Made by a program: the position numbers and the translations under genes | Assembly: GCA_021443885.1 (NCBI GenBank) | Contig: JABUSW010000130.1 | Location: 1-33,411, forward strand | DNA length: 33,411 nt | Origin: Blautia sp. | Lineage (GTDB): Bacteria; Bacillota; Clostridia; Lachnospirales; Lachnospiraceae | Reading direction: 5' to 3' | The notes under the pieces: generated by a model | What the model saw: the letters and a program-made list of their open reading frames with translations, nothing else | Databases searched by the model: none | What the model was told of the DNA's origin: nothing | Part shown: positions 10,675 to 24,748 of the stretch, piece by piece | How the letters are laid out: every line of letters starts with the position of its first letter | How positions within the stretch are numbered: the stretch's first letter is position 1

Positions 10675-10727
10675 TCCTATTATTTATTTGGATTCTCCTA
10701 TTAACACGATGCGAAAATGAATATACT
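10675..10727 (+). promoter_or_regulatory. Carboxylesterase promoter with direct-repeat operator: TCCTAT-N15-TCCTAT-N20-TATACT
   Basis: TCCTAT at 10675-10680 and 10696-10701 (21 bp apart); candidate -10 TATACT at 10722-10727. Same layout as 14914-14966. Confidence 0.65.
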
Positions 10728-10789
10728 GGTAGTGAAGATGGGATAGTTTTCCTATGTGGGGACATGTATGGGAGGAGCAGAGGTGTGAT

Positions 10790-12343
10790 ATGAAGACAGG
10801 ATTTGATTATCATAGAGATCGGAATATTGTAGAAACCAGCAAAGGAGCTGTACGGGGATACATATCGGAGGATGTGTACTGTTTTGCCGGAATACCCTAT
10901 GCCAAAGCGGAGCGCTTCTGCGAAGCGGAAGAAGCAGAACCGTGGGAGGGCGTTCTGGACACGACAGATTACGGGAGTGTGGCACCCCTTCTTCACCCCA
11001 TGAATATGGGCGGGCAGCTTTTGACGCCTCACCGTATGCAGACCCAGGATGAGTATTGTCAGTATCTGAATATCTGGACGCCGGTGATCAACCGGGATGC
11101 GAAGCTTCCGGTTATGGTATGGCTGCATGGAGGCGGATACTTTGAGGGTTCCTCTATTGAACAGGATGCCTATGATGGAAAGAATCTGGCATTAAATGAA
11201 CAGGTGGTTGTTGTGACGCTGAATCACCGGCTGAATATCCTGGGATATCTGGATGTGGCGGTATTGGGTGAAACGTATGAGAATTCCGGGAATGCCGGAA
11301 TGACAGATATTGTGGAAGCCTTGAAATGGATCCAAAAGAACATCCATGCTTTTGGCGGCGATTCGGATAATGTGACCTTATTTGGACAGTCCGGAGGCGG
11401 CGGGAAAATCATTACGCTGATGCAGATTCCTTTGGCAGAGGGCCTTTTTCAGAAAGCAATTATCCAAAGCGGAGTCCTTCCCGTTGACCGGACGCCGGCT
11501 GCGGAAGTCAGAGCCGGGAATGCAATGCTGGTAAAGGCTATGGCAGAGTATCTGCAGCTAAAAGATACGATGGAGTTAACCACTGTTGTATATGACCGAT
11601 TAAGGGAAGCATATCTGCAGGCAAAACGCCGGCTGCGAAAACAGGGGATCGTCTGTGGCGGAAACGGTCCGGTACCCAACGATTATTACAAGGGAGATCC
11701 GGATATCGCAGGCTTTACCGAAATGGCGAAAAAGATTCCTATAATATGCGGGTCTACCTTTGCAGAGATCTGTTTTGCACCGGATATTGTAGACAGAGAT
11801 CAGATCGGGCAGGAGGAAGTCCAAAGATTATTAGAACAAAAGTATACGAAAGAAGGGGTCGACAAACTGATTCCGGCATTTCAGGAAGCGTTTCCGGACA
11901 AACCGCTTGCAGACCTTCTGGTAATCGACCATATGATTCGAAGAGAAACGCTGCGCTTCACGGAGCAGTTTGCAAAAGAAGGGAAAAGACCGATTTTTAA
12001 CTACCTGTTTACCTTTGATTTCCTGTATAATGGAAGAAAGGCAGCATGGCATTGCTCGGAAATCCCATTTGTTTTCCATAACATTGACCGGATTCCGGTC
12101 TGTAAGATCCCTGGCGCACGTGAAACAGAAGAACAGATGTGTCATACCTTTGCAGCGTTTGCAAGAACGAAAGAATTCCGGAATATCGAGGAGCTTCCCG
12201 GGGGATGGAAGCCTTATCAGACAGAAAAACGCCATGTGATGCGGTTTGATCGAGAGAGCAAAGAGATGTCTTTGACAGATTGCGGTCTGCAGGAGCTGCT
12301 GGAGAAATATCTGCCTGTGTTTATGCCGGATTTCGAGGATTGA
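10790..12343 (+). CDS. Type-B carboxylesterase / para-nitrobenzyl esterase family hydrolase
   Basis: 'FAGIPYAKAERF', 'DEYCQYLNIWTP', 'LPVMVWLHGGGYFEGS', 'TLFGQSGGGGKI' (GxSxG). ATG 10790 preceded by ggagg; the ORF also permits 10754. Confidence 0.9.
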   Translation: MKTGFDYHRDRNIVETSKGAVRGYISEDVYCFAGIPYAKAERFCEAEEAEPWEGVLDTTDYGSVAPLLHPMNMGGQLLTPHRMQTQDEYCQYLNIWTPVINRDAKLPVMVWLHGGGYFEGSSIEQDAYDGKNLALNEQVVVVTLNHRLNILGYLDVAVLGETYENSGNAGMTDIVEALKWIQKNIHAFGGDSDNVTLFGQSGGGGKIITLMQIPLAEGLFQKAIIQSGVLPVDRTPAAEVRAGNAMLVKAMAEYLQLKDTMELTTVVYDRLREAYLQAKRRLRKQGIVCGGNGPVPNDYYKGDPDIAGFTEMAKKIPIICGSTFAEICFAPDIVDRDQIGQEEVQRLLEQKYTKEGVDKLIPAFQEAFPDKPLADLLVIDHMIRRETLRFTEQFAKEGKRPIFNYLFTFDFLYNGRKAAWHCSEIPFVFHNIDRIPVCKIPGARETEEQMCHTFAAFARTKEFRNIEELPGGWKPYQTEKRHVMRFDRESKEMSLTDCGLQELLEKYLPVFMPDFED

Positions 12344-12437
12344 TGGCAGCATTACAAGAGTAGAGAATGCGAATCAGTGCATGCTGTTTAATGGGGTTGA
12401 GATTGCAGAGCTGCGCAGCAGCGAAGAGGAGTCATGT

Positions 12438-14153
12438 ATGAACAAAAATAGAACAGTTTTCTGGATCATCATTTTGATTCCTCTGATTCTGGTTGTGCCG
12501 GTGAATATCGTGGTGATTCACAACGCACAGAAAGAGATGCAGTATCTGGTGGAGGAACGGACCAACGAATCCCAGAGCTATATTCAATCTATGGGAAACA
12601 ACGTGGAACGGGACCTTCAGACAGTCGAAGAATATATGCAGATGCTGGTTACCCAGGGAGACGAATGCATTAATCTGAAACGTTATTCTTCTACCAGCCA
12701 AAAGGGATTCTGGTCGGAATCTTCCAAACTGGGAAAAACATTGAAGACTTTTTTGGCAACCAATAGCTGCGTGGGTGGTGTCATTGTATATTTCAGTGAA
12801 GCGGATGTCATTGTCAGTCAATCGAATTTTGGTGCGAAGGAAAAGAAAAAGAATATCGACAGGATGACGGAGATAGTCAAATCAGATACCGGATCCTTGC
12901 AGCTTGGACAATCCAGGAACTGGATTCATTATCAGGTGGAAGGAATGGATTACCTGGGAGTGGTAACAAAAGATGAGAATGTGGTCTGCCTGGCGACTGT
13001 ATCATTAAATGATATTCTGGACTCCATGAAAGGAAGTATGGATGGAGAGTCCTATTTCCATTATCTGAGCTTCAATAACCGGATGCTGACAAAGGAGGGC
13101 ATTACAGAGATGCCGGAAATCCGGGATCAGGCTACTGTATTTTACAAAGGCAGCGAATACTATGATGTCAGCAAAATAATGCTGTCCGGTAATCTGGTTT
13201 TGGGAAGAATGCTGGATAAAAACAGTCTGACGGAAAGTACGCGAAGGTTAACCTATCCGCTTTTGATATTGTCTGTTTTGTGCTGTCTGGTTGGCCCACT
13301 GATCTCACTGACTTTTATCTACTTTGTGGAGAGACCACTGAATACACTGACAACCACTATGGACCGGATTCGTAATGGAGACAGGCAATACCGTATTCAG
13401 CTTCGGAAAAAACGGATATACAGTGAGTTTGATGATCTGAACCAGGATTTCAACAACCTGATGGATGAACTGGAAGCCAGTCAGAAAGCACTGATGCAAA
13501 AGGAGCTGGAAGAGCAAAGGGTGGAGCTTCGATATCTCAGTGAACAGATCCGGCCTCACTTTATACTCAATGCGTTGAACATCGTATATACATACGATGA
13601 CGAGGAATTTCCACTGGCGCGGAAAATGGTGCTTCATCTGACAAAGTACTTCCGGTACCTGGTAAATCTGAATTCGGATTACGTCTATCTTTACGACGAG
13701 ATGGAATTCGTGAAAACATATCTGGAGATCCAGAAGGTTCGCTATCCGGACCGGTTCGTCTATTTTGCAGAATGGGAAGACGAGGTAGGAGCTGCAGAGA
13801 TCCCGGCTGTTGTTATTCAGACTTTTGTGGAAAACTGTATCAAATACAGCATTGAGAAGGATAAAATGCTGTATATCATGATCCGGGCGAAAAAAATCGG
13901 GAATGATAAGCTTCAGCTGACCATAGCAGACACAGGAAAAGGTTTCAACGAGAATACGTTGAAAGATATCCGGAACTTCCTGCATACCAGGGAGTATAGT
14001 GAACGGCTGGGAGTCGGCATTCAGAATGTAGTGAAGAGGCTGCATCTGTTATATGGAGAAAACTATTATGTGGGCATCAAAAACAGTGAAAGCGGTGGTG
14101 CAAGAGTAGAGCTTGTGCTTCCCTTGATCGTGGAGGAGAAAGCAGTTGATTAA
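12438..14153 (+). CDS. YesM-like sensor histidine kinase
   Basis: Two TM segments flanking an extracellular domain, HAMP-like region, 'LRYLSEQIRPHFILNALN' His-kinase box, HATPase 'NCIKYSIEKDKM', 'DTGKGF'. ATG 12438 after gaggag. Confidence 0.9.
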   Translation: MNKNRTVFWIIILIPLILVVPVNIVVIHNAQKEMQYLVEERTNESQSYIQSMGNNVERDLQTVEEYMQMLVTQGDECINLKRYSSTSQKGFWSESSKLGKTLKTFLATNSCVGGVIVYFSEADVIVSQSNFGAKEKKKNIDRMTEIVKSDTGSLQLGQSRNWIHYQVEGMDYLGVVTKDENVVCLATVSLNDILDSMKGSMDGESYFHYLSFNNRMLTKEGITEMPEIRDQATVFYKGSEYYDVSKIMLSGNLVLGRMLDKNSLTESTRRLTYPLLILSVLCCLVGPLISLTFIYFVERPLNTLTTTMDRIRNGDRQYRIQLRKKRIYSEFDDLNQDFNNLMDELEASQKALMQKELEEQRVELRYLSEQIRPHFILNALNIVYTYDDEEFPLARKMVLHLTKYFRYLVNLNSDYVYLYDEMEFVKTYLEIQKVRYPDRFVYFAEWEDEVGAAEIPAVVIQTFVENCIKYSIEKDKMLYIMIRAKKIGNDKLQLTIADTGKGFNENTLKDIRNFLHTREYSERLGVGIQNVVKRLHLLYGENYYVGIKNSESGGARVELVLPLIVEEKAVD

Positions 14154-14913
14154 AGCAATTTTGGTAGATGATGAGATCCGGGTTTTGCAGGCAATCGAAA
14201 AAAATGTGAATTGGAAGGCGTGTGGAATTGATTATCTCCTGACTGCCGGGGATGTGGATGCGGCCAGAGGCCTGATTCGGAAATACCAGCCGGATCTGCT
14301 GCTTACCGACATCGAGATGCCGGATGGCAGTGGACTGGAACTGATTGAAGAGGTGTTGAAGGAATGGCCCCAGGTAAAGTGCATCTGTATTAGTTGTCAT
14401 CCGGAATTTGCTTATCTTCGAAAGGCGATGCAGCTTGGCAGTGTGGATTATATTCTGAAACCGGTGGAATACGCAGAACTTGAAATGATTCTGAAAAAAA
14501 CGGTACAAGGCATTCAGAACAGCCGGTACGGGGAGGCATCCTCCGGAGAGTTGTCAGCGAATCCGGAAGTCGGTTACTACGAAGAAGACCGGTTTATGGA
14601 ACAGGCAAAGGAATACATCGAGCAGCACCTGCTGGAGGATATATCTATCGGAAAGCTGGCAGACAGCATTGGCAGCAGTTCCTCTCATGTGATGCGTACC
14701 TTTAAGAAACGACTGAACATGACAGTCATTGAATATGTGACGAGCCAGCGTCTGGAAAAAGCGAAGCAGCTTTTGTCCAATACAGACCTGCCGATCATGA
14801 CGGTAGCGGAGTTCTCCGGCTATGCCGACTATTCCTACTTTACCCGGGTCTTTAAGAAAGAAACCGGTGTTACACCAAGAGAATATCGAAATAACAGCAA
14901 ACCAGCAAAATAG
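14146..14913 (+). CDS. Response regulator with AraC-type DNA-binding domain (YesN-like)
   Basis: Receiver domain 'ILVDDEIRVLQAI...LLLTDIEMPDGSG...YILKPVEYAEL' and C-terminal AraC HTH 'VAEFSGYADYSYFTRVFKKETGVTPREYR'. TTG start, 8-nt overlap with the kinase gene. Confidence 0.93.
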   Translation: MIKAILVDDEIRVLQAIEKNVNWKACGIDYLLTAGDVDAARGLIRKYQPDLLLTDIEMPDGSGLELIEEVLKEWPQVKCICISCHPEFAYLRKAMQLGSVDYILKPVEYAELEMILKKTVQGIQNSRYGEASSGELSANPEVGYYEEDRFMEQAKEYIEQHLLEDISIGKLADSIGSSSSHVMRTFKKRLNMTVIEYVTSQRLEKAKQLLSNTDLPIMTVAEFSGYADYSYFTRVFKKETGVTPREYRNNSKPAK

Positions 14914-14933
14914 TCCTATTTGCTGGTTTTTTT
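14899..14933 (+). terminator. Rho-independent terminator overlapping the response-regulator stop codon
   Basis: AACCAGCAAAatagtcctaTTTGCTGGTTTTTTT. Confidence 0.88.
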
Positions 14934-14966
14934 GTCCTATCGAAAGAAGGTCCTGCTTGTTACACT
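14914..14966 (+). promoter_or_regulatory. ABC operon promoter with direct-repeat operator: TCCTAT-N15-TCCTAT-N20-TACACT
   Basis: TCCTAT at 14914-14919 and 14935-14940; candidate -10 TACACT 14961-14966; same layout as upstream of the carboxylesterase. Confidence 0.65.
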
Positions 14967-15044
14967 GTTTTTATCAAAAGCATCAAAGTGGAGATTGTTC
15001 CGGAGTATCTTTCACTTTGAGCAATAACAGGAAAGGGGAAGAAT

Positions 15045-15962
15045 ATGAAGACAAAGAAGAAAGTGAAATTCAAACGCTGGATTCCCTGCTATCTGATGGC
15101 GCTGCCATGTGTCATTTACTTTTTCATTAATAATTATATGCCTATGGTAGGTCTTCAGATTGCCTTCAAACGTTATAACGTAAAGGATGGAATCTGGGGG
15201 AGTCAGTTCATCGGATTTGACAATTTCAAATACCTCTTCAGCAGTAAAGAAGCATGGGTTATTACCCGAAATACCATAGGATACAATCTGTTCTGGATCA
15301 TTCTTAATACCGTATTGGGAGTTGCCATCGCTATCTTTCTGAATGAGATACGAAGCAAAACAGCGAAAAAGGTGTACCAGACCTTTATTCTGCTTCCATA
15401 TCTGATCTCCATGGTTGTGGTTTCTTATCTGGCATATGCATTCCTGAGTGAACAGACCGGTTTTATCAACAGCATCCTGAAATCTCTTGGCCTTCCGGGA
15501 ATCATGTGGTACCAGAAAGCAAAATACTGGCCGGTAATACTGACCATCATCTATGAATGGAAAAATATCGGCTTCAATACCATTATTTTCCTGGCCAGCC
15601 TGGTAGGAATCAGCAAGGATTATTATGAAGCGGCAGAAATGGATGGAGCGACCAAATGGATGCAGATCAAGAAGATCACGATTCCAATGCTGGTTCCCAC
15701 CATTGTCATGCTGGTGACGGTTGGAATGGGCAATATCTTCCGTTCGGATTTCGGCTTGTTCTATCAGGTTCCCAGAAATCAGGGTATGCTGAATGCGGCA
15801 ACCAACACCATCGATACCTTCGTGTTCCGGGCATTACTGCAGACAGGAGATATTGGAATGTCATCTGCAGCATCCTTCTATCAGTCCGTGATCTGTCTGA
15901 TTACGATTCTGATATTTAACAGTGTCATGAAGAAGCTCAGTAAAGAAAATGCCATGTTCTAA
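15045..15962 (+). CDS. ABC transporter permease, LplB/YtcP-type (CUT1)
   Basis: 305 aa; 'YNLFWIILNTVLGVAIAIFLNEI', EAA loop 'EAAEMDGATKWMQIKKITIPML'. Confidence 0.92.
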   Translation: MKTKKKVKFKRWIPCYLMALPCVIYFFINNYMPMVGLQIAFKRYNVKDGIWGSQFIGFDNFKYLFSSKEAWVITRNTIGYNLFWIILNTVLGVAIAIFLNEIRSKTAKKVYQTFILLPYLISMVVVSYLAYAFLSEQTGFINSILKSLGLPGIMWYQKAKYWPVILTIIYEWKNIGFNTIIFLASLVGISKDYYEAAEMDGATKWMQIKKITIPMLVPTIVMLVTVGMGNIFRSDFGLFYQVPRNQGMLNAATNTIDTFVFRALLQTGDIGMSSAASFYQSVICLITILIFNSVMKKLSKENAMF

Positions 15963-15979
15963 AGGAAAGGAGAGAGAAA

Positions 15980-16852
15980 ATGAATAAGTCAAGTAAACGG
16001 TTTCTGGCTTTAAGCCACGTTGTGCTCATCTTTTTAAGCATCTGTATTGTAGCGCCGTTCCTGCTTCTGATCATCTCTTCTTTGACAGAGGAAAAAACGG
16101 CAGTGAAATACGGTTATAGCTTTTTCCCGAAGCAGTGGTCACTGGATGCCTACAAGTACATTCTCAGCAACAGCGCTTTGTTCGGCAAAGCTTTTATCAT
16201 TACGATCTGCGTGACGGTGGCCGGGGTCCTGATTGGAGTCCTGATCTCATCCATGATGGCATATGTGCTGTCCAGACCGGGGATTCCGGGAGGCGGAATA
16301 CTGAATTTTTACGTGGTCTTTACCATGCTGTTTAATGGTGGTCTGGTGGCAACCTATCTGAATTACGTGCAGATATTCCATATCAAAAACACATATCTGG
16401 CACTGCTGGTGCCAAACCTGCTGTGCAATGCCTTCTCGATCATAATGATCAAGAATTATTTCCAGTCCACCATTCCGGAGGAGCTTTTGGAAGCGGCAAG
16501 AATCGACGGAGCATCGGAGATGTCTATTTTCCTGAAGGTGGTTATGCCACTGTCCAAACCGATCCTGGCCACAGTTGCTCTGATCATCGGGCTGGCATAT
16601 TGGAATGACTGGCAGAATGGTCTGTATTATCTGGACGATGCAACGATGCATGGAATCCAGAATGTATTGAATGATATGAACAGCAATGCAAAATACCTGA
16701 TGCAGTTTGCAGGAAGCTCCGGGGTATCCATTCCTACGACTACGGTACGAATGGCAATTGCTGTGGTTGGTATCTTCCCGATCCTCTGTGTATATCCTTT
16801 CTTCCAGGAGTTTTTCGCAAAGGGGATCACAGCCGGAGCAGTGAAAGGATAA
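15980..16852 (+). CDS. ABC transporter permease, LplC-type (CUT1)
   Basis: 290 aa; EAA loop 'EAARIDGASEMSIFLKVVMPLSKPILATVALI'. Confidence 0.92.
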   Translation: MNKSSKRFLALSHVVLIFLSICIVAPFLLLIISSLTEEKTAVKYGYSFFPKQWSLDAYKYILSNSALFGKAFIITICVTVAGVLIGVLISSMMAYVLSRPGIPGGGILNFYVVFTMLFNGGLVATYLNYVQIFHIKNTYLALLVPNLLCNAFSIIMIKNYFQSTIPEELLEAARIDGASEMSIFLKVVMPLSKPILATVALIIGLAYWNDWQNGLYYLDDATMHGIQNVLNDMNSNAKYLMQFAGSSGVSIPTTTVRMAIAVVGIFPILCVYPFFQEFFAKGITAGAVKG

Positions 16853-17056
16853 CCTGTCATTTCATTTGCCGGAGGTTCTGTGACCATGTGGTGAAAGGAT
16901 AGTCCAAGATTCGGGTTGTTCTGTGCTATAATTTCATAATATGCAAGGATATAATAGGTATATCATCAAAAACGCAGCAGAGGCTGCGTAAAACAAAGAC
17001 CGGTGAAGCAGCGCAAAAGGAAATGCTTTACCACAAAGGTTGAAAAGGAGGAAGCT

Positions 17057-18550
17057 ATGAAGAAACGTTTTGCAACAACATTACTTTCTGCAGCATTGAT
17101 CGGTTCTATGCTGACAACTGCTCCAATGGCGGTTCAGGCAGAAGACAATTATGAACTGGTGATCGAACTGATGACATTCGGGCCTGTTCCGGCTGATATC
17201 GAGAAAGTGGAAACGGCAATTTCTGAGATCACATCTGAGAAAATCGGCGCAACTGTAAAATTCCTTCCAATCTCTGTTGCTGACCACGCAACAAAGGTAA
17301 ATCTGCTGGCAGCAGGCGGAGAAAAAGTGGATCTGATCATGAGCGGTATTACCGGAGATCCGGCTACCCTTTATGGAAATGGAGTTCTGACAGACCTGAC
17401 GGAACTGATCGATGAATATGCACCGTCTCTGAAAGAGGAAATGGGAGACCTGTTGAATGCATGTACCTATAATGGCGGTATTTATGCAATTCCAGGTGTA
17501 AAATATCCGGGTGAGAAACTGAATCTTCTTTATAACAAAGATATGGCAGAAGAATACGGGATCGAGATTCCGGAGACCTTAAACGGATACGAAGAGTGGG
17601 ATGCATTCTTTGCACAGTGCAAGGAAAAACTTCCGGAAGGAATCTATCCATTTACCTTAGGTGATGGAAGCGGATCTTCCACACTGAACTGGGATTCTGC
17701 TTATGATTCTCTTGGCGATACAAGCTATCTGGCATATGGCGTTCTGGCCGAGGTTGAGACCGGAACAGAGCTTGTGAACTGGTATGAGACAGAGAAATAC
17801 CAGACAATGCTGGAAAAGAGACACGAGTGGTATGAGAACGGATATGTAGTTCCGGATTCCATGACAAGTGGATATTCCACATTGGACTGCATGGGTGCAG
17901 GTACCTGCTTTGCTTTCCAGAATGCTTTCAAAGCAGACTGTAATGAGGTAACCTTAGGACGTAACTGTGGTGGTCTGAATCTTGGATACATTCCGTTGTC
18001 CGATGCCATCATTTCCGGTTCTTCTACCTGTATGATGAGCTGGGGTGTTCCGGTGACATCTGAACAGCCGGAAAAAGCTGTCCAGTTTATGGAACTTCTG
18101 TTCTCTGATGCAGAACTCGCAAATATCTGTAACTTTGGTATCGAAGGCGAGCACTATGTAAAAGAGAGCGATCGCATTGTAAACTATCCGGAAGGAAAAG
18201 ACGCAATGAGCAATGGTTGGGGCGGATTCATCAACTGGTTTGGCGATAATGAGAAGGTTTACCAGTTTGCACCAAATACAGAAGAATACTTTGACCAGCT
18301 TCCAAGCTACAGCAAGGAAGAAGGCATTGTATCCAATGCACTGGGTTACACCTTTGATAATACCAGCGTAAAGACACAGCTTGCAGCAGTTACTTCCGTG
18401 ATCGATACCATGAAACCGGCTCTGGAATGTGGCCTTGTAAGCGTGGAAGAGGAGCTTCCAAACTTCATTCAGGCTCTGAAGGATGCAGGAATTGATGAGA
18501 TTATCGCAGAAAATCAGGCACAGTTTGATGCCTGGCTGGCAGCGAAATAA
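17057..18550 (+). CDS. Extracellular solute-binding protein of the CUT1 transporter
   Basis: Signal peptide MKKRFATTLLSAALIGSMLTTAPMAVQA, SBP family-1-like body; ATG 17057 after aaaggagg; adjacent to both permeases. Confidence 0.88.
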   Translation: MKKRFATTLLSAALIGSMLTTAPMAVQAEDNYELVIELMTFGPVPADIEKVETAISEITSEKIGATVKFLPISVADHATKVNLLAAGGEKVDLIMSGITGDPATLYGNGVLTDLTELIDEYAPSLKEEMGDLLNACTYNGGIYAIPGVKYPGEKLNLLYNKDMAEEYGIEIPETLNGYEEWDAFFAQCKEKLPEGIYPFTLGDGSGSSTLNWDSAYDSLGDTSYLAYGVLAEVETGTELVNWYETEKYQTMLEKRHEWYENGYVVPDSMTSGYSTLDCMGAGTCFAFQNAFKADCNEVTLGRNCGGLNLGYIPLSDAIISGSSTCMMSWGVPVTSEQPEKAVQFMELLFSDAELANICNFGIEGEHYVKESDRIVNYPEGKDAMSNGWGGFINWFGDNEKVYQFAPNTEEYFDQLPSYSKEEGIVSNALGYTFDNTSVKTQLAAVTSVIDTMKPALECGLVSVEEELPNFIQALKDAGIDEIIAENQAQFDAWLAAK

Positions 18551-18592
18551 CAAACCCATTAATCAGAAAAGCGAAAATTAAGGTTTTGCTTT

Positions 18593-18626
18593 GAAAGGCC
18601 AGATAGCGGTCGCTGTCTGGCCTTTC
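18593..18626 (+). terminator. Terminator/attenuator between the SBP and GRE activase genes
   Basis: GAAAGGCCAGATAGCG-gt-CGCTGTCTGGCCTTTC then tttata. Confidence 0.8.
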
Positions 18627-18713
18627 TTTATAGAACGTGGTAGATGATGTGGAGAACACCCTCTTATGGGTGAATTTCCATCGAAACTTATCAGGACCGG
18701 AAGGAGGACAGCT

Positions 18714-19640
18714 TTGCGAAGCAACATGATCTTTCAGATACAATCATATTCCATACATGACGGACCGGGTATCCGGACAACGGTTTTTGTAAAAGGCTGC
18801 CCGTTACGCTGCCTTTGGTGCCATAATCCGGAATCTCAGAAGAACACGCCGGAAGTTATGTGGGTAGAAGCAAACTGCAGTGGCTGCGGAGCTTGTATGG
18901 AAATCTGTCCGCAAGAGGCGATTCAGATCAGAGAAACGATGTCCGAAAAAAAGCTTCCGGTTACAGACCGTACAAAATGCAATGGCTGTGGTGCGTGTGT
19001 TTCCGGCTGCCGTTGGAAGGCGAGAAGGATGGCAGGGAAGACGTATCAGATCGAAGAGGTCATGAAAGTGATTCGCAAAGATGCCATGTTTTACCCTTTG
19101 TCAGGCGGGGGAGTAACCGTCAGCGGCGGAGAACCTTTGGCCAGCCTTGACTTTACAGTAGAATTGCTTGGAAGGTGTAAGGAAGAAGGCTATCATACAG
19201 CCATCGAGACTTGCGGATATGCATCGGAAGAAGCGGTACGAAAAGTGCTGCCCTATTTGGATCTGGTTTTTCTGGATCTGAAAGCGATGGACCCGGAAAG
19301 ACACAAAGAGCTTACCGGGGTGGAGAATGGCAGGATTCTGCAGAATGCAAGAATCATTGCCGGATCCGGGGTCGATATGGTGCTTCGCATCCCTATGATC
19401 CGTAACTGCAATGCGGATGAAGAGAATATCCGTCTGACAGGTGAATTCATATCAAAGGAGCTTGGTCGGGATATTCCGGTGCAGCTTCTCCCGTACCACA
19501 ATCTGGGCATCAGTAAAGAAGAGCAGTTGGAACGGACCGGGATTACAGAATTTCAGGCTCCATCCACAGAAGAAATGGAACACAGCAAAAGAATCCTGGA
19601 GGAATATGGACTTCCGGTGCAGATCGGCGGTTCCATGTAA
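18714..19640 (+). CDS. Glycyl-radical enzyme activating protein (radical SAM with two-cluster ferredoxin insert)
   Basis: 'GCPLRCLWCHNPESQ' (CxxxCxxC), 'CSGCGACMEICP', 'CNGCGACVSGC', 'SGGGVTVSGGEPL'. TTG 18714 after GGAGG or ATG 18726 are more likely starts than ATG 18666. Confidence 0.92.
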   Translation: MRSNMIFQIQSYSIHDGPGIRTTVFVKGCPLRCLWCHNPESQKNTPEVMWVEANCSGCGACMEICPQEAIQIRETMSEKKLPVTDRTKCNGCGACVSGCRWKARRMAGKTYQIEEVMKVIRKDAMFYPLSGGGVTVSGGEPLASLDFTVELLGRCKEEGYHTAIETCGYASEEAVRKVLPYLDLVFLDLKAMDPERHKELTGVENGRILQNARIIAGSGVDMVLRIPMIRNCNADEENIRLTGEFISKELGRDIPVQLLPYHNLGISKEEQLERTGITEFQAPSTEEMEHSKRILEEYGLPVQIGGSM

Positions 19641-19667
19641 TAATAAAGACGAAAGGAGAAATCATAT

Positions 19668-22067
19668 ATGAGTGAGAGGATTCAGAAACTACTGGAAAAA
19701 ACAAAAGGAAAACCAACTATATCCATGAACATTTACCGGATCATCCAGAATACGTATCGGGAGATGAGCGGAGAACCCTTGGTAAAGTGCAGAGCACAGG
19801 CCATTTATAATATATTGACGAAGATACCGCTTTACATTGAGGAGGGAGACCTTCTGGCAGGAAATCCCGGAAGTGTTCCCGGTGGCCTGGAAATCGACTC
19901 CGCAAATGGAATCTGGAATGAATCCGAGATCCAGGACCTGTATCGTGACGGATACGGATTTAACAAGGAGGATGAGCCGGAGCTTTATGAGCTGAACCGT
20001 ACCAACACACCTTACAGCATGAACGATGGCGTAGCAGAAGCCCTGGAGGAAAACGGTGCCATCATGCCGTTTCTGCATTCCGGCATGGGAATGGTACGCT
20101 GGACATCGCTGGAACGCGGTCGACAGATCATGCAGTGCAGTGCCCAGGGTGGATTGAACCTGACCCCGGCACAGGCTATGATGATTCTGGATTACGAAAC
20201 GGCGTTGTCCAGAGGAATCGAAGATATGATCCGTGATTGCGACGAACGTATCAAAGGCATTCGATTCTTTTCCAAGGAAGAATATGATAAAGCGGTATAT
20301 CTGAAAGCAATGCGGACCACACTGCAAGGACTCCTGATCTATGGAAAGAGACTGTCGGATCTGGCAGCACAGGAGGCAGAAAAAACGGAGGATGCGGCAA
20401 GGAAAGCAGAGCTTCTTCAGATGTCTGAGATCCTGAAGCAGGTGCCGGCAAAACCTGCCAGAACTTTCAGGGAAGCATTGCAGATGTATTGGCTGCTGTT
20501 CCATACCGTTGCTTGTCCAAACAGCGTGCTGGGTATGGGAAGACTGGATCAGATTTTATATCCTTATTATCAGCATGACATTCAGGAAGGAATCATTACC
20601 GATGAAGAGGTACTGGAGCTCTTTGAACTGTTAAGAGTAAAAGATTATCAGCTGGGGGTTGTAACCGGAAAAGATTGCCGTGATACCTCCAATGGAGAAG
20701 CAAAATGGCATAACATCGTTATTGGCGGTGTGAAGAAGGATGGAAGTGATGCTACGAACGAACTCAGCTATCTGATCCTGAAATCCATTCGTGGCGTACA
20801 GACACCACACCCTACCGTAAGCGTCCGGGTGGCAGATTCCACACCTGTGGAACTGATTCTGGAAGGCCTGAAATGCGTCCGGGCCGGCTGCAGTATGCCG
20901 GCATTCCTGGGAGATCGTTCTTATATTGAGTATCTGTTGAGAAATGGCGTATCGGAGGAAGAGGCTCGTAATTATGCCGTGGCAGGCTGTATTGACGTAG
21001 TGCTTCCGGGAAAATCCAGAATCATGAGTGCCTGCATGTTCATTACCCCTATGTGTCTGGATGTGTTCCTGAACCACGGAATCAATCGCAATCTGGGAGA
21101 ACAGATGGGGCATGATCCCGGTGATCTGAATCAGTGGAAGAGCTATGGGGAATTCGAAGCTGCCTTCAAAGAAGAGTTCAAGTACTTCATCTCCATGATG
21201 GCAGAATACAGCAACCTGATGATCTGCTCCATGCAGGAGCATTTCCCGGAGCCGGGAAAAACACCCTTCATGTATCGCGGTATCGAAGATGGCATTGATT
21301 TCCAGAAAAAGAAAATGGTATTTGAAAACGGCGGTGTCATCTGCCCGGTCGGAATCGTAAATCTGGGGAATTCTTTATATGCCATCAAAAAACTGGTTTA
21401 TGAAGAACAGAAACTGACTCTGAATGAGCTGAAAGAAATCATGGACCAAAATTGGGAAGGACAGGAAGAGCTTCGGAAATACTGTCTGGAGCTTCCGAAA
21501 TACGGCAACGACTGTGACGAAGTAGACCAGATGATCAGCGATATGTACCAGTATTTTGACGAAGCCTGCAGAGAGATGCCTTGCGCTACCGGTACGATCT
21601 ACCGGGGCTCTGCGGTATCCATATTCGGGCACGCCCCGGGCGGTAGCCTGACAGGTGCAACACCGGATGGCCGTCTGGCGGGAGAAACCCTGGCAGATGC
21701 AGGTGCATCCCCAATGAGAGGAACGGATATGGAGGGGCCTCTTTCTGTGATCCGCAGTGCCATCAAGCTGCCACAGGATGATTATCAGGCAATGCTGTTT
21801 AATATGAAATTCAGCAAAGCAACTATGAGCAACGATGCAGACCTTGGAAAGCTGGCGGCTCTGATTCAAACCTATTTCTTCCACAACGGAAAACACATTC
21901 AGTTCAACATGGTGGACAGACAGACTCTTCTGGATGCCAGAGAACATCCGGAAAATCACCGGGATCTTCTGGTTCGTGTGGCTGGTTACAGTGCATATTA
22001 TGTGGAACTGACAGAACGCTTGCAGGTGGAAATTCTGGAACGTACACAGAATGATGAAATACGTTGA
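19668..22067 (+). CDS. Glycyl radical enzyme of the pyruvate formate-lyase / glycerol dehydratase superfamily, unassigned subtype
   Basis: 799 aa; glycyl radical loop 'RVAGYSAYYVELTERLQVEILERTQ' (Gly773) and active-site loop 'AVAGCIDVVLPGKS' (Cys441); adjacent activase. Confidence 0.93.
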   Translation: MSERIQKLLEKTKGKPTISMNIYRIIQNTYREMSGEPLVKCRAQAIYNILTKIPLYIEEGDLLAGNPGSVPGGLEIDSANGIWNESEIQDLYRDGYGFNKEDEPELYELNRTNTPYSMNDGVAEALEENGAIMPFLHSGMGMVRWTSLERGRQIMQCSAQGGLNLTPAQAMMILDYETALSRGIEDMIRDCDERIKGIRFFSKEEYDKAVYLKAMRTTLQGLLIYGKRLSDLAAQEAEKTEDAARKAELLQMSEILKQVPAKPARTFREALQMYWLLFHTVACPNSVLGMGRLDQILYPYYQHDIQEGIITDEEVLELFELLRVKDYQLGVVTGKDCRDTSNGEAKWHNIVIGGVKKDGSDATNELSYLILKSIRGVQTPHPTVSVRVADSTPVELILEGLKCVRAGCSMPAFLGDRSYIEYLLRNGVSEEEARNYAVAGCIDVVLPGKSRIMSACMFITPMCLDVFLNHGINRNLGEQMGHDPGDLNQWKSYGEFEAAFKEEFKYFISMMAEYSNLMICSMQEHFPEPGKTPFMYRGIEDGIDFQKKKMVFENGGVICPVGIVNLGNSLYAIKKLVYEEQKLTLNELKEIMDQNWEGQEELRKYCLELPKYGNDCDEVDQMISDMYQYFDEACREMPCATGTIYRGSAVSIFGHAPGGSLTGATPDGRLAGETLADAGASPMRGTDMEGPLSVIRSAIKLPQDDYQAMLFNMKFSKATMSNDADLGKLAALIQTYFFHNGKHIQFNMVDRQTLLDAREHPENHRDLLVRVAGYSAYYVELTERLQVEILERTQNDEIR

Positions 22068-22136
22068 TCGAAAGGATTGCATATTTGCTTCCATCGGATA
22101 GAAAATAATCATTTTTATGAAAGAGACGGGAAGATT

Positions 22137-23624
22137 ATGAACTATACAGATATTGAGAATATCACAGCCCGCTTCCTGCATCAGAATCACCAGCTTCAGA
22201 TGCAGGAGGGACAATACTGCAAAGACCTTTCCCTGTCCTGCTGGTCTTCCCCGGTTTATCGTCTTTCAGAAGATGGCCGGGAAGGCGGCATGTTCTGCGA
22301 TACTTTTACCTATCGTTTCTATCGGGAAAATGAGACGGACTACTGTCGTGTGATCATGAAGCGCCTGGAGACGAGAATCGAGGAGGCAGATGGCGTCAGC
22401 AGTATCACGGATGTGCGCTGGTCTACCATTCAGGAAATGCTTCCCTGGGAATACACAAATCAGGATTTGATACTTTCCGGGGATGAAACAGAAGATGGGA
22501 CAAAGAAAGGATTCTGCTATGAGAAGCTGCCCGCCTGGCCTTCCCTGCCGGTGCATGGGATAAATGACCCGCAGGATGTTCTGGATATACGAAACCTGCA
22601 GAACAAAGTGTTTGAACACCGTCTGCACGGCATCGCAAAGCTTTTTTCAGAAACATGTGAAGCAGAGTTATTCCTGGACAAATGCATGGAAGCGCCGGTC
22701 ATCGGAAAAGAACAGATTGATAACTGGAGCCGAGCCTATCTGGACACAGAAACGCAGAATCATCATTGCTACCGGTTTCTGGGAATCACCGGCCTTCCGG
22801 TAATCGAGATCGCAAATGAAAAAACCCATGCAAAAGGCTTATTCATGACAGAGCTTTGCATCATCGATGCTTTTGCAGAGGATATGGAGCAGTGGCAGCT
22901 TCGTCGTTATCTGGGTTATGTGCAATCGGATTATGTCAAAGAAAACGACATCTGGAAGATTCGGAAGATGGAGCTTCAGACGGTGGCGGCAATGCCAGTC
23001 ATTCCTTACCGCAATGACGGACGATATGACAAGAGCGGACAAAGTGAGGAGCCCTGGAATATTGACCAGGAAAACTTCGGCTCTATTCACACAGAAGATG
23101 CAATGGAGATCGAAAATATTATAAATGGGTGGGCACTTTCCTGCAGATGTGGTAAACTGATGGCATATGCAGATCGTTACTTTGCAATGCCGGAGGGGGA
23201 ACCGAAAATGTTGATTCGAAGCTTCGGCGCAAAGACGAAGAAGCTGGAGAATCTGGAAGAGATCAGAGAAAAACTATCCGGGATGATAAGTCAGTATCAG
23301 AACCGCTACTATACCTTCCATGCCCCCACAACACCGGTTCTGCAGTATGAAGGAGACCAGGAGCATATCATTGGTACCTGGTTTGACTGCGGGACCACCA
23401 ATCTTCGCAGTATGGCGAAGTCCGTGAATGAGATCCCCTATATGATTTTTATCAACAAATACGTGCATCGCTTCCGGAAGATCGACGGCCGGTGGTATTT
23501 TGCAGAGTTCTATGGAGAACCGGCCATTGGCTTTCCGGACTGGTATTTCGATCTGGAACACAGCAGAGGATATGTGTCATTAGAAGGAACGAAGTGTTAT
23601 CCGGATGAGTTTCTTCTTCTGTGA
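22137..23624 (+). CDS. Multi-domain SnoaL/NTF2-like protein
   Basis: ~495 aa; repeated patterns 'AKGLFMTELCIIDAF...GYVQSDYVKENDIWKIRKMEL' and 'IIGTWFDCG...YVHRFRKIDGRWYFAEFYGEPA' typical of SnoaL-like domains. ATG 22137 preferred over TTG 22077. Confidence 0.65.
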   Translation: MNYTDIENITARFLHQNHQLQMQEGQYCKDLSLSCWSSPVYRLSEDGREGGMFCDTFTYRFYRENETDYCRVIMKRLETRIEEADGVSSITDVRWSTIQEMLPWEYTNQDLILSGDETEDGTKKGFCYEKLPAWPSLPVHGINDPQDVLDIRNLQNKVFEHRLHGIAKLFSETCEAELFLDKCMEAPVIGKEQIDNWSRAYLDTETQNHHCYRFLGITGLPVIEIANEKTHAKGLFMTELCIIDAFAEDMEQWQLRRYLGYVQSDYVKENDIWKIRKMELQTVAAMPVIPYRNDGRYDKSGQSEEPWNIDQENFGSIHTEDAMEIENIINGWALSCRCGKLMAYADRYFAMPEGEPKMLIRSFGAKTKKLENLEEIREKLSGMISQYQNRYYTFHAPTTPVLQYEGDQEHIIGTWFDCGTTNLRSMAKSVNEIPYMIFINKYVHRFRKIDGRWYFAEFYGEPAIGFPDWYFDLEHSRGYVSLEGTKCYPDEFLLL

Positions 23625-23724
23625 GAAGGGTTCGTAACAGGCGACAGAATGCTGCATTGAACAGAAATTAAAAGCAAACGGGTATTATAAATCATCATAC
23701 TTATTAGAAAAGAGGGATAAGATT

Positions 23725-24564
23725 ATGGCAGTATTTCAAGTGAATTTTATGGCAGAAACGATGGGAAGAACCGTACCCCTTTATGTGATCCTGCCCACAG
23801 ACAAATTCTATATGCCGGGCATGCCAAAGAGAGAAGAGGGCAAGCCTTATAAGACGCTGTACCTGCTCCACGGTATCATCGGCAACTATACCGACTGGCT
23901 TTACGGAACCTCCATACAGAGATGGGCAGAGGAACGGGACCTGGCCGTTGTAATGCCTTCCGGCGATAACTCTATGTATATCGACCATGCGGTAGACCGC
24001 TACGGTGAATTTATCGGGAAAGAACTGGTAGAATTCACAAGAAAGACATTTCCGCTTTCCCATAAGAAAGAAGATACTTACATTGGCGGTCTTTCCATGG
24101 GGGGCTTTGGTGCAATGCGAAATGGACTGAAATACAGTGACACCTTCGGAGCCATTATTTCTCTGTCCGGTGCATTTGTCATGGACGAAAGCATTCTGGA
24201 GGTGGTAGAGAATCCGAGATTCCCATCCGATACCATGGAATATCGTCATGCTGTATACGGAGAAGATCTGGAAGCATCCTTAAAGAGTGATAAAAACCCG
24301 AAGTGGCTGGTAGAAACCATGGCTGCAGAGGGTAAGGAATTCCCGGACATTTATATGGCGATCGGGACCTCGGATTTCCTTTTCGACCGCAACAAAGAGT
24401 TTGATGCCTTGCTGACGAAGCATGGTGTGAAACATGAATTCGTAACAGGACCGGGGGCCCATGAATGGGACTTCTGGAATACCTATATCAAAGAGGCCTT
24501 GGACTGGCTTCCTCTGGAAGGAAAGAATGAAGGAAGAAGCAGCGGAAACGTAGGGCTGGAATAG
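23725..24564 (+). CDS. Esterase D / tributyrin esterase-like alpha/beta hydrolase
   Basis: 279 aa; 'KTLYLLHGIIGNYTDW', nucleophile 'GGLSMGGFGAMR', C-terminal His 'GAHEWDFW'. Confidence 0.9.
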   Translation: MAVFQVNFMAETMGRTVPLYVILPTDKFYMPGMPKREEGKPYKTLYLLHGIIGNYTDWLYGTSIQRWAEERDLAVVMPSGDNSMYIDHAVDRYGEFIGKELVEFTRKTFPLSHKKEDTYIGGLSMGGFGAMRNGLKYSDTFGAIISLSGAFVMDESILEVVENPRFPSDTMEYRHAVYGEDLEASLKSDKNPKWLVETMAAEGKEFPDIYMAIGTSDFLFDRNKEFDALLTKHGVKHEFVTGPGAHEWDFWNTYIKEALDWLPLEGKNEGRSSGNVGLE

Positions 24565-24574
24565 GAGGATGTCT

Positions 24575-24748
24575 ATGCTGCCAAAGGACCCGGTGATGCT
24601 GCTCAGTTATGTGAATACACAGCTGAGAGATCATTACAAAGATCTGGAAAGCTTTTGCGGCGACCAGGATATCAACGAAGAGGAATTGCGCGCAAAACTG
24701 CGTATGATTGATTACGAATACGATCCGGAAACGAATCAATTTATATGA
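24575..24748 (+). CDS. DUF4250-like small protein (57 aa)
   Basis: MLPKDPVMLLSYVNTQLRDHYKDLESFCGDQDINEEELRAKLRMIDYEYDPETNQFI*; RBS aggagg; absent from the supplied ORF track. Sequence resembles DUF4250 proteins from memory. Confidence 0.8.
   Translation: MLPKDPVMLLSYVNTQLRDHYKDLESFCGDQDINEEELRAKLRMIDYEYDPETNQFI

Follow-up and report, generated by a model that had tools for sequence, protein, structure and literature searches.

A Blautia locus pairing an apparently uncharacterised glycyl radical enzyme with esterases, an importer and a three-domain SnoaL-like protein

The 33,411-nucleotide stretch of Blautia sp. DNA analysed here (contig JABUSW010000130.1 of assembly GCA_021443885.1; hereafter, the window) carries ten intact genes, all on the + strand, between clpB and a 59-aa DUF4250-size gene. 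They encode, in order, a carboxylesterase, a YesM kinase, a YesN regulator, the permeases LplB and LplC, a solute-binding protein, a radical-enzyme activase, a glycyl radical enzyme (GRE), a SnoaL-like protein and a PF00756 esterase. An initial annotation, made from the sequence alone, had proposed a GRE catabolic locus of nine genes; we count ten, and Pfam, NCBIfam and motif analysis found every gene it named to be present, co-directional and intact. The features are as follows.

10790-12343 (alternative start 10754), + strand: type-B carboxylesterase (PF00135, Pfam 264.5 bits), predicted cytosolic, GQSGG elbow
12381-14153, + strand: YesM-type sensor histidine kinase (PF06580, HATPase_c, HAMP)
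14146-14913, + strand, TTG start: YesN-type response regulator, receiver plus AraC helix-turn-helix (Pfam), overlapping the kinase gene by 8 bases
14900-14928, + strand: perfect 10-bp inverted repeat at the 3' end of the regulator gene, possible terminator
15045-15962, + strand: CUT1 permease, LplB type (PF00528)
15980-16852, + strand: CUT1 permease, LplC type (PF00528)
17057-18550, + strand: extracellular solute-binding protein with signal peptide and C-terminal DUF3502 (PF01547, PF12010), GGAGG ribosome site
18593-18626, + strand: 16-bp inverted repeat with T-rich tail between the binding protein and activase genes, possible attenuator
18714-19640 (TTG start; alternative ATG 18666), + strand: radical SAM GRE-activating enzyme with two ferredoxin-type clusters (TIGR02494, motifs)
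19668-22067, + strand: GRE of the GCxD subfamily, with Cys441, Asp443 and Gly773 (PF02901, 486 bits; PF01228, 106 bits)
22137-23624, + strand: three-domain SnoaL/NTF2-like protein, 495 aa (SnoaL_4, 32.1 bits)
23725-24564, + strand: PF00756 esterase (esterase D / CE1-like; Pfam), predicted cytosolic, GLSMG elbow
24569-24748: DUF4250-size gene, 59 aa, following the PF00756 esterase gene

Pfam supports every gene assignment far above chance, the SnoaL call being weaker yet over its cutoff. Good ribosome sites shift three starts slightly, to 17057 for the binding protein, 18714 (TTG) for the activase and 22137 for the SnoaL protein. The GC content of the locus (46.5%) equals that of its flanks (46.7%), so nothing in the composition points to recent foreign origin. 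Gene spacing together with the inverted repeats at 14900-14928 and 18593-18626 suggests two or three transcripts rather than one.

The GRE belongs to its superfamily by its PF02901 and PF01228 matches, by Cys441 in a GCID Cys-loop and Gly773 in the motif RVAGYS, and by the adjacent activase, which scores 349.7 bits against a TIGR02494 cutoff of 174.35 and has a CxxxCxxC motif besides its two ferredoxin-type clusters. At about 340-475 bits the window GRE matches many NCBIfam GRE models, but it reaches no equivalog cutoff, those of the specialised models lying at 1000-1150 bits; four relatives also fall far below them. The initial annotation had named a match to a characterised enzyme as grounds for giving up its proposal, and the five proteins scored, the window GRE included, miss every characterised GRE family model.

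Specific assignments were rejected on the same scores: choline trimethylamine-lyase CutC (461.8 bits vs 1050 for TIGR04394, with a GCID rather than GCVE loop), trans-4-hydroxyproline dehydratase HypD (446.6 vs 1100, NF043068), the sulfopropanediol dehydratases HpsG and HpfG (459.9 and 353.7 vs 1000, NF048011 and NF048009), and indoleacetate and hydroxyphenylacetate decarboxylase (IAD and HPAD; 427.9 vs 1100, NF033718, and 338.9 vs 1150, NF033715). A B12-independent glycerol/propanediol dehydratase was rejected by alignment with 1r8w and 5i2a, in which Glu is replaced by Asp and the pocket positions of diol dehydratases, a substrate-binding set that we take to be His/His/Ser/Asp, are not kept. 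IslA, HplG and BssA-type enzymes were compared by whole-protein PDB scores only.

In a tree with same-family CutC, HypD, YbiW and a 7e7l-like decarboxylase (HypD, YbiW and the decarboxylase named by PDB match, CutC by its loop motif), the window GRE and its relatives, 15 proteins in all, fall on one side of a branch with support of 100/99. All 15 have a GC[ILV]D Cys-loop, where the loop is GCxE in the eliminases compared and GCVL in the decarboxylase. Arg338 and Trp347 are among the positions specific to the clade. The Cys-loop Asp does not by itself define the clade, because a Lachnospiraceae-family GRE outside it (L031:934-3405, genome G111) also has GCVD; that protein, with its GFTARF Gly-loop, appears to be another uncharacterised type. 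On these grounds the GCxD clade is apparently an uncharacterised GRE subfamily. That the locus should instead be a known choline, hydroxyproline, diol or sulfonate pathway in an odd neighbourhood is highly improbable: the GRE family, size and activase type would agree with it, but the five clade members scored reach at most about half of the equivalog cutoffs, GCxD is universal in the clade, and Pfam points to neither a microcompartment nor an aldehyde dehydrogenase nor any amine/sulfonate gene in the locus.

What reaction this subfamily might catalyse can be narrowed by comparison. The window GRE shares family, length, Cys- and Gly-loops, an activase with two extra clusters and a carboxylate at Cys+2 with the eliminases (CutC, glycerol/propanediol dehydratase, HypD, YbiW), but differs from them in having Asp rather than Glu at Cys+2 and in its clade-specific Arg338 and Trp347. 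The arylacetate-type decarboxylase 7e7l tops its PDB matches together with CutC, at a similar score, and the 7e7l-like decarboxylase has two residues in common with the clade, His381 (nearly invariant) and His655 (invariant); position 381 is Gln in CutC, HypD and YbiW. These residues bear on an alternative in which the esterases free an aryl or related carboxylic acid, for instance from a phenolic ester, and the GRE decarboxylates it. Both trees draw the clade beside the 7e7l-like decarboxylase (Shimodaira-Hasegawa-like approximate likelihood ratio test 88; 94/92), and ferulic acid esterases are among the solved relatives of the PF00756 esterase. However, the decarboxylase branch is very long, which makes this placement unsafe, its GCVL loop departs from GCxD, a His also aligns close to position 655 in HypD, and the scores with the IAD and HPAD models (428 and 339 bits) lie far under the cutoffs of 1100 and 1150. 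We regard this alternative as unlikely, if the most serious of those considered here. In isethionate lyase a conserved glutamate deprotonates the substrate hydroxyl (PMC6453916), and in HPAD and IAD a Glu adjoining the Cys assists the thiyl (PMC6181972); given these two roles of Glu, an Asp at Cys+2 fits elimination and decarboxylation alike. We thus cannot choose firmly between them, but if the genes do form a pathway, elimination at a C-O or other C-heteroatom bond would carry about half of our expectation, decarboxylation a clearly smaller share and some other reaction the smallest.

The SnoaL-like protein appears to consist of three NTF2-like segments, as judged from its Pfam match, its secondary-structure pattern and its relatives. 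It exceeds the SnoaL_4 gathering score of 24 bits, as does, at 40.8 bits, a fusion protein in the related genome G815 described below. Structure models (the whole protein and domain 3, from two sequences) have predicted local distance difference test scores of 44 and 49, that is, low confidence; a helix-plus-sheet pattern occurs three times over in such a model, and Foldseek searches with these low-confidence models gave no match at E 0.001, the weak matches being mostly NTF2-like proteins. The third domain (about residues 316-470) was clearly the best conserved in a first alignment of five full-length proteins, and in an alignment of seven relatives, one of them a domain-3 fragment, the invariant residues are confined to it and include H395, D417, Y442 and H444. 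These residues look like a candidate active site. The family match is common to the SnoaL_4 dehydratases BaiE and scytalone dehydratase, and domain 3 of the window protein has two invariant His and an Asp; unlike those dehydratases, it has three domains per chain, two of them poorly conserved, and its relative in G815 is fused to an esterase.

The two serine esterases belong, as initially proposed, to different families, and neither has a signal peptide detectable in its sequence. The nearest solved relative of the carboxylesterase is by a wide margin 5a2g (413 bits; the next scores only 206), which we take to be a polyester-active esterase of Hungatella/Clostridium hathewayi; we know of no link between 5a2g and a GRE. 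An H. hathewayi esterase is cited in PMC12504347. For the PF00756 esterase the nearest solved relatives are 4rgy, 7l0a and 6vh9, with the ferulic acid esterases 7xrt/7xrv further off. A PF06580 kinase, an AraC-type response regulator, two PF00528 permeases and a binding protein together make up a YesMN-regulated CUT1 importer, the permease, binding-protein and regulator types being the same as in LplBC/YesMN glycan-uptake operons; in contrast to those operons, the window locus contains esterases and a GRE in place of a glycoside hydrolase. The signal peptide of the window binding protein lacks a lipobox Cys, which is odd for a Gram-positive ABC importer; the Cys is present in a homolog from the genome G067 (L078).

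The case for a common function comes from relatives. Within the 396 family genomes, GREs at 37-44% identity to the window GRE occur, and two orthologs (66 and 60%) are found in G067; a further near ortholog (64%) lies in G815, which is of the same genus as G067 and so of a second genus relative to the window. Among the genomes searched, G067 and G815 are the only ones besides the window genome with GRE orthologs at 60-66%. On contig C6 of G067, one strand carries an AraC-GH39 gene, the GRE, the activase, a GH3 gene, a binding protein and a PF00756 esterase (44% identical to that of the window), and contig C30 has an intact SnoaL gene, an esterase fragment, a binding protein and AraC-GH39. On contig C40 of G815, one strand carries a PF00756 esterase, a binding protein, the activase, the GRE, AraC-GH39 and, 2.8 kb downstream of the GRE, a 157-aa C-terminal SnoaL remnant; an RpiR regulator and another binding protein are also present on this contig. 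Contig C102 of G815 encodes the fusion mentioned above (L090:563-3448), a protein of 961 aa in which a single frame joins SnoaL and PF00756 esterase and a proline-rich insert precedes domain 3 of SnoaL; it adjoins a sugar-isomerase-like gene, a VOC gene and a GH3 gene.

The SnoaL family is very rare, its clear members being limited to the window, G067 (three), G815 (the fused copy and the remnant) and a Pseudobutyrivibrio metagenome-assembled genome (MAG). Two of the 396 family genomes are clear carriers, and the window genome is the only one among 64 congeners and 368 class genomes. The sole other genome with a GRE ortholog among the 396 is also the sole other clear SnoaL carrier, a coincidence expected by chance about 1 in 395 times if ancestry is ignored; of the four genomes of genus g68, two carry both genes and two carry neither, and the placement of a SnoaL copy within 10 kb of the GRE and on its strand in G815 has a rough chance expectation of 0.7%. 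Compared with the window, the relatives have diverged to 44% identity in the esterase, 27-39% in SnoaL and about 28% in the binding protein. GRE, activase, PF00756 esterase, binding protein and SnoaL thus remain associated despite both reordering and such divergence, from which we argue for a shared function. It is unlikely that the GRE, SnoaL and the esterase lie together wholly by chance, as the core recurs, in another order, in another genus.

The neighbourhood check proposed with the initial annotation, run here in part, bears out this five-gene core in a second genus but not the ten-gene set, which was not found again. Several observations weigh against a single pathway. Neither the carboxylesterase nor YesMN nor LplBC lies beside the GRE in G067 or G815; of the two esterases, only the PF00756 enzyme accompanies it there. 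Carboxylesterases of the window kind number nine or more in G067. The closest importer orthologs seen (59/52/43%) adjoin other carboxylesterases and genes that by eye are creatininase-like, with no GRE. Near the second GRE copy of G067 are a choloylglycine-hydrolase family gene (L043:14987-15946) and a binding protein, with no matching SnoaL or esterase, the SnoaL gene beside the G815 GRE is the remnant, the Pseudobutyrivibrio MAG has SnoaL and a carboxylesterase but only distant GREs (best 33% over the longest stretch), and the linkage is known from two genera only. An importer/esterase operon might then merely abut a separate GRE/SnoaL/esterase operon with a different substrate, an arrangement with which the separation of regulator, importer and GRE blocks by the inverted repeats and the separate clusters of importer orthologs and GRE in G067 would agree. 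Opposed to this are the DUF3502-type binding protein that goes with each of the near GRE orthologs (window, L042, L043, L089) and the carboxylesterase that adjoins SnoaL in the Pseudobutyrivibrio MAG (L009) as well, and we consider mere abutment a little less probable even than the decarboxylase alternative.

The pairing of carboxylesterase and SnoaL is confined to the window and this MAG, where the carboxylesterase is truncated: SnoaL follows an open frame (L009:8032-9996) with AraC in frame with a carboxylesterase short of about 170 N-terminal residues, which may reflect decay, a chimera or a fusion. AraC-GH39 proteins beside the GRE (L042:276-2690, L089:1366-3978, L089:12093-14492) are unusual regulator-enzyme fusions. 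Near more distant GCxD GREs (L044-L054) there are repeatedly genes for S15-family hydrolases, MatC-type carriers, oligopeptide-type ABC importers or URO-D proteins, some identified by eye, and also a beta-lactamase-fold hydrolase. GH39 and GH3 genes adjoin the relatives in G067 and G815, unlike in the window locus. GH3 was rejected as a pathway member: its 68% ortholog in the window genome sits apart from the locus, among unrelated genes, so the adjacency in relatives may be general. Judged by gene content, the neighbourhoods are a modular kit; what recurs in it is hydrolases, glycosidases and a single binding-protein type.

Altogether, the locus looks like a real pathway because its core genes stay together in another genus, and we give about even weight to a model whereby it gives a Lachnospiraceae-type anaerobe an inducible route for catabolising a small, glycoside-like molecule with ester groups. 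In this model, for which we infer the order of steps, the chemistry and the membership of all genes in one pathway, YesMN would sense the inducer, and the DUF3502 binding protein and LplBC permeases would import the substrate with a shared ATPase encoded elsewhere. The two esterases would remove ester groups in the cytosol, and the activase-charged GRE would cleave a bond in a released part by radical elimination or decarboxylation. The SnoaL protein, whose domain 3 looks enzymatically competent, would act on a compound that is also a substrate or product of the PF00756 esterase. Both the curated models and the open-access literature agree with the initial statement that no characterised pathway is known with this gene set; our search of that literature found no paper on a GRE locus with SnoaL, NTF2, glycoside or esterase.

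Many abundant gut GREs are without known function (review, PMC11574389). The locus points to an apparently uncharacterised subfamily of GREs that bears a simple mark in its sequence, Asp at Cys+2; the neighbouring genes narrow the substrate to one that is imported, ester-bearing and probably glycosidic, while the SnoaL-esterase fusion offers a second, presumably oxygen-tolerant handle on that substrate. We speculate, tentatively and with less confidence than in the pathway itself, that the GCxD clade is a functionally new GRE class that, partnered by a three-domain SnoaL enzyme, cleaves an aglycone or acyl part once this has been released from acylated plant glycosides; if so, it would open a new anaerobic route from plant-metabolite esters to fermentable products. 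If it were found, the reaction would add a step to the anaerobic breakdown of plant compounds.

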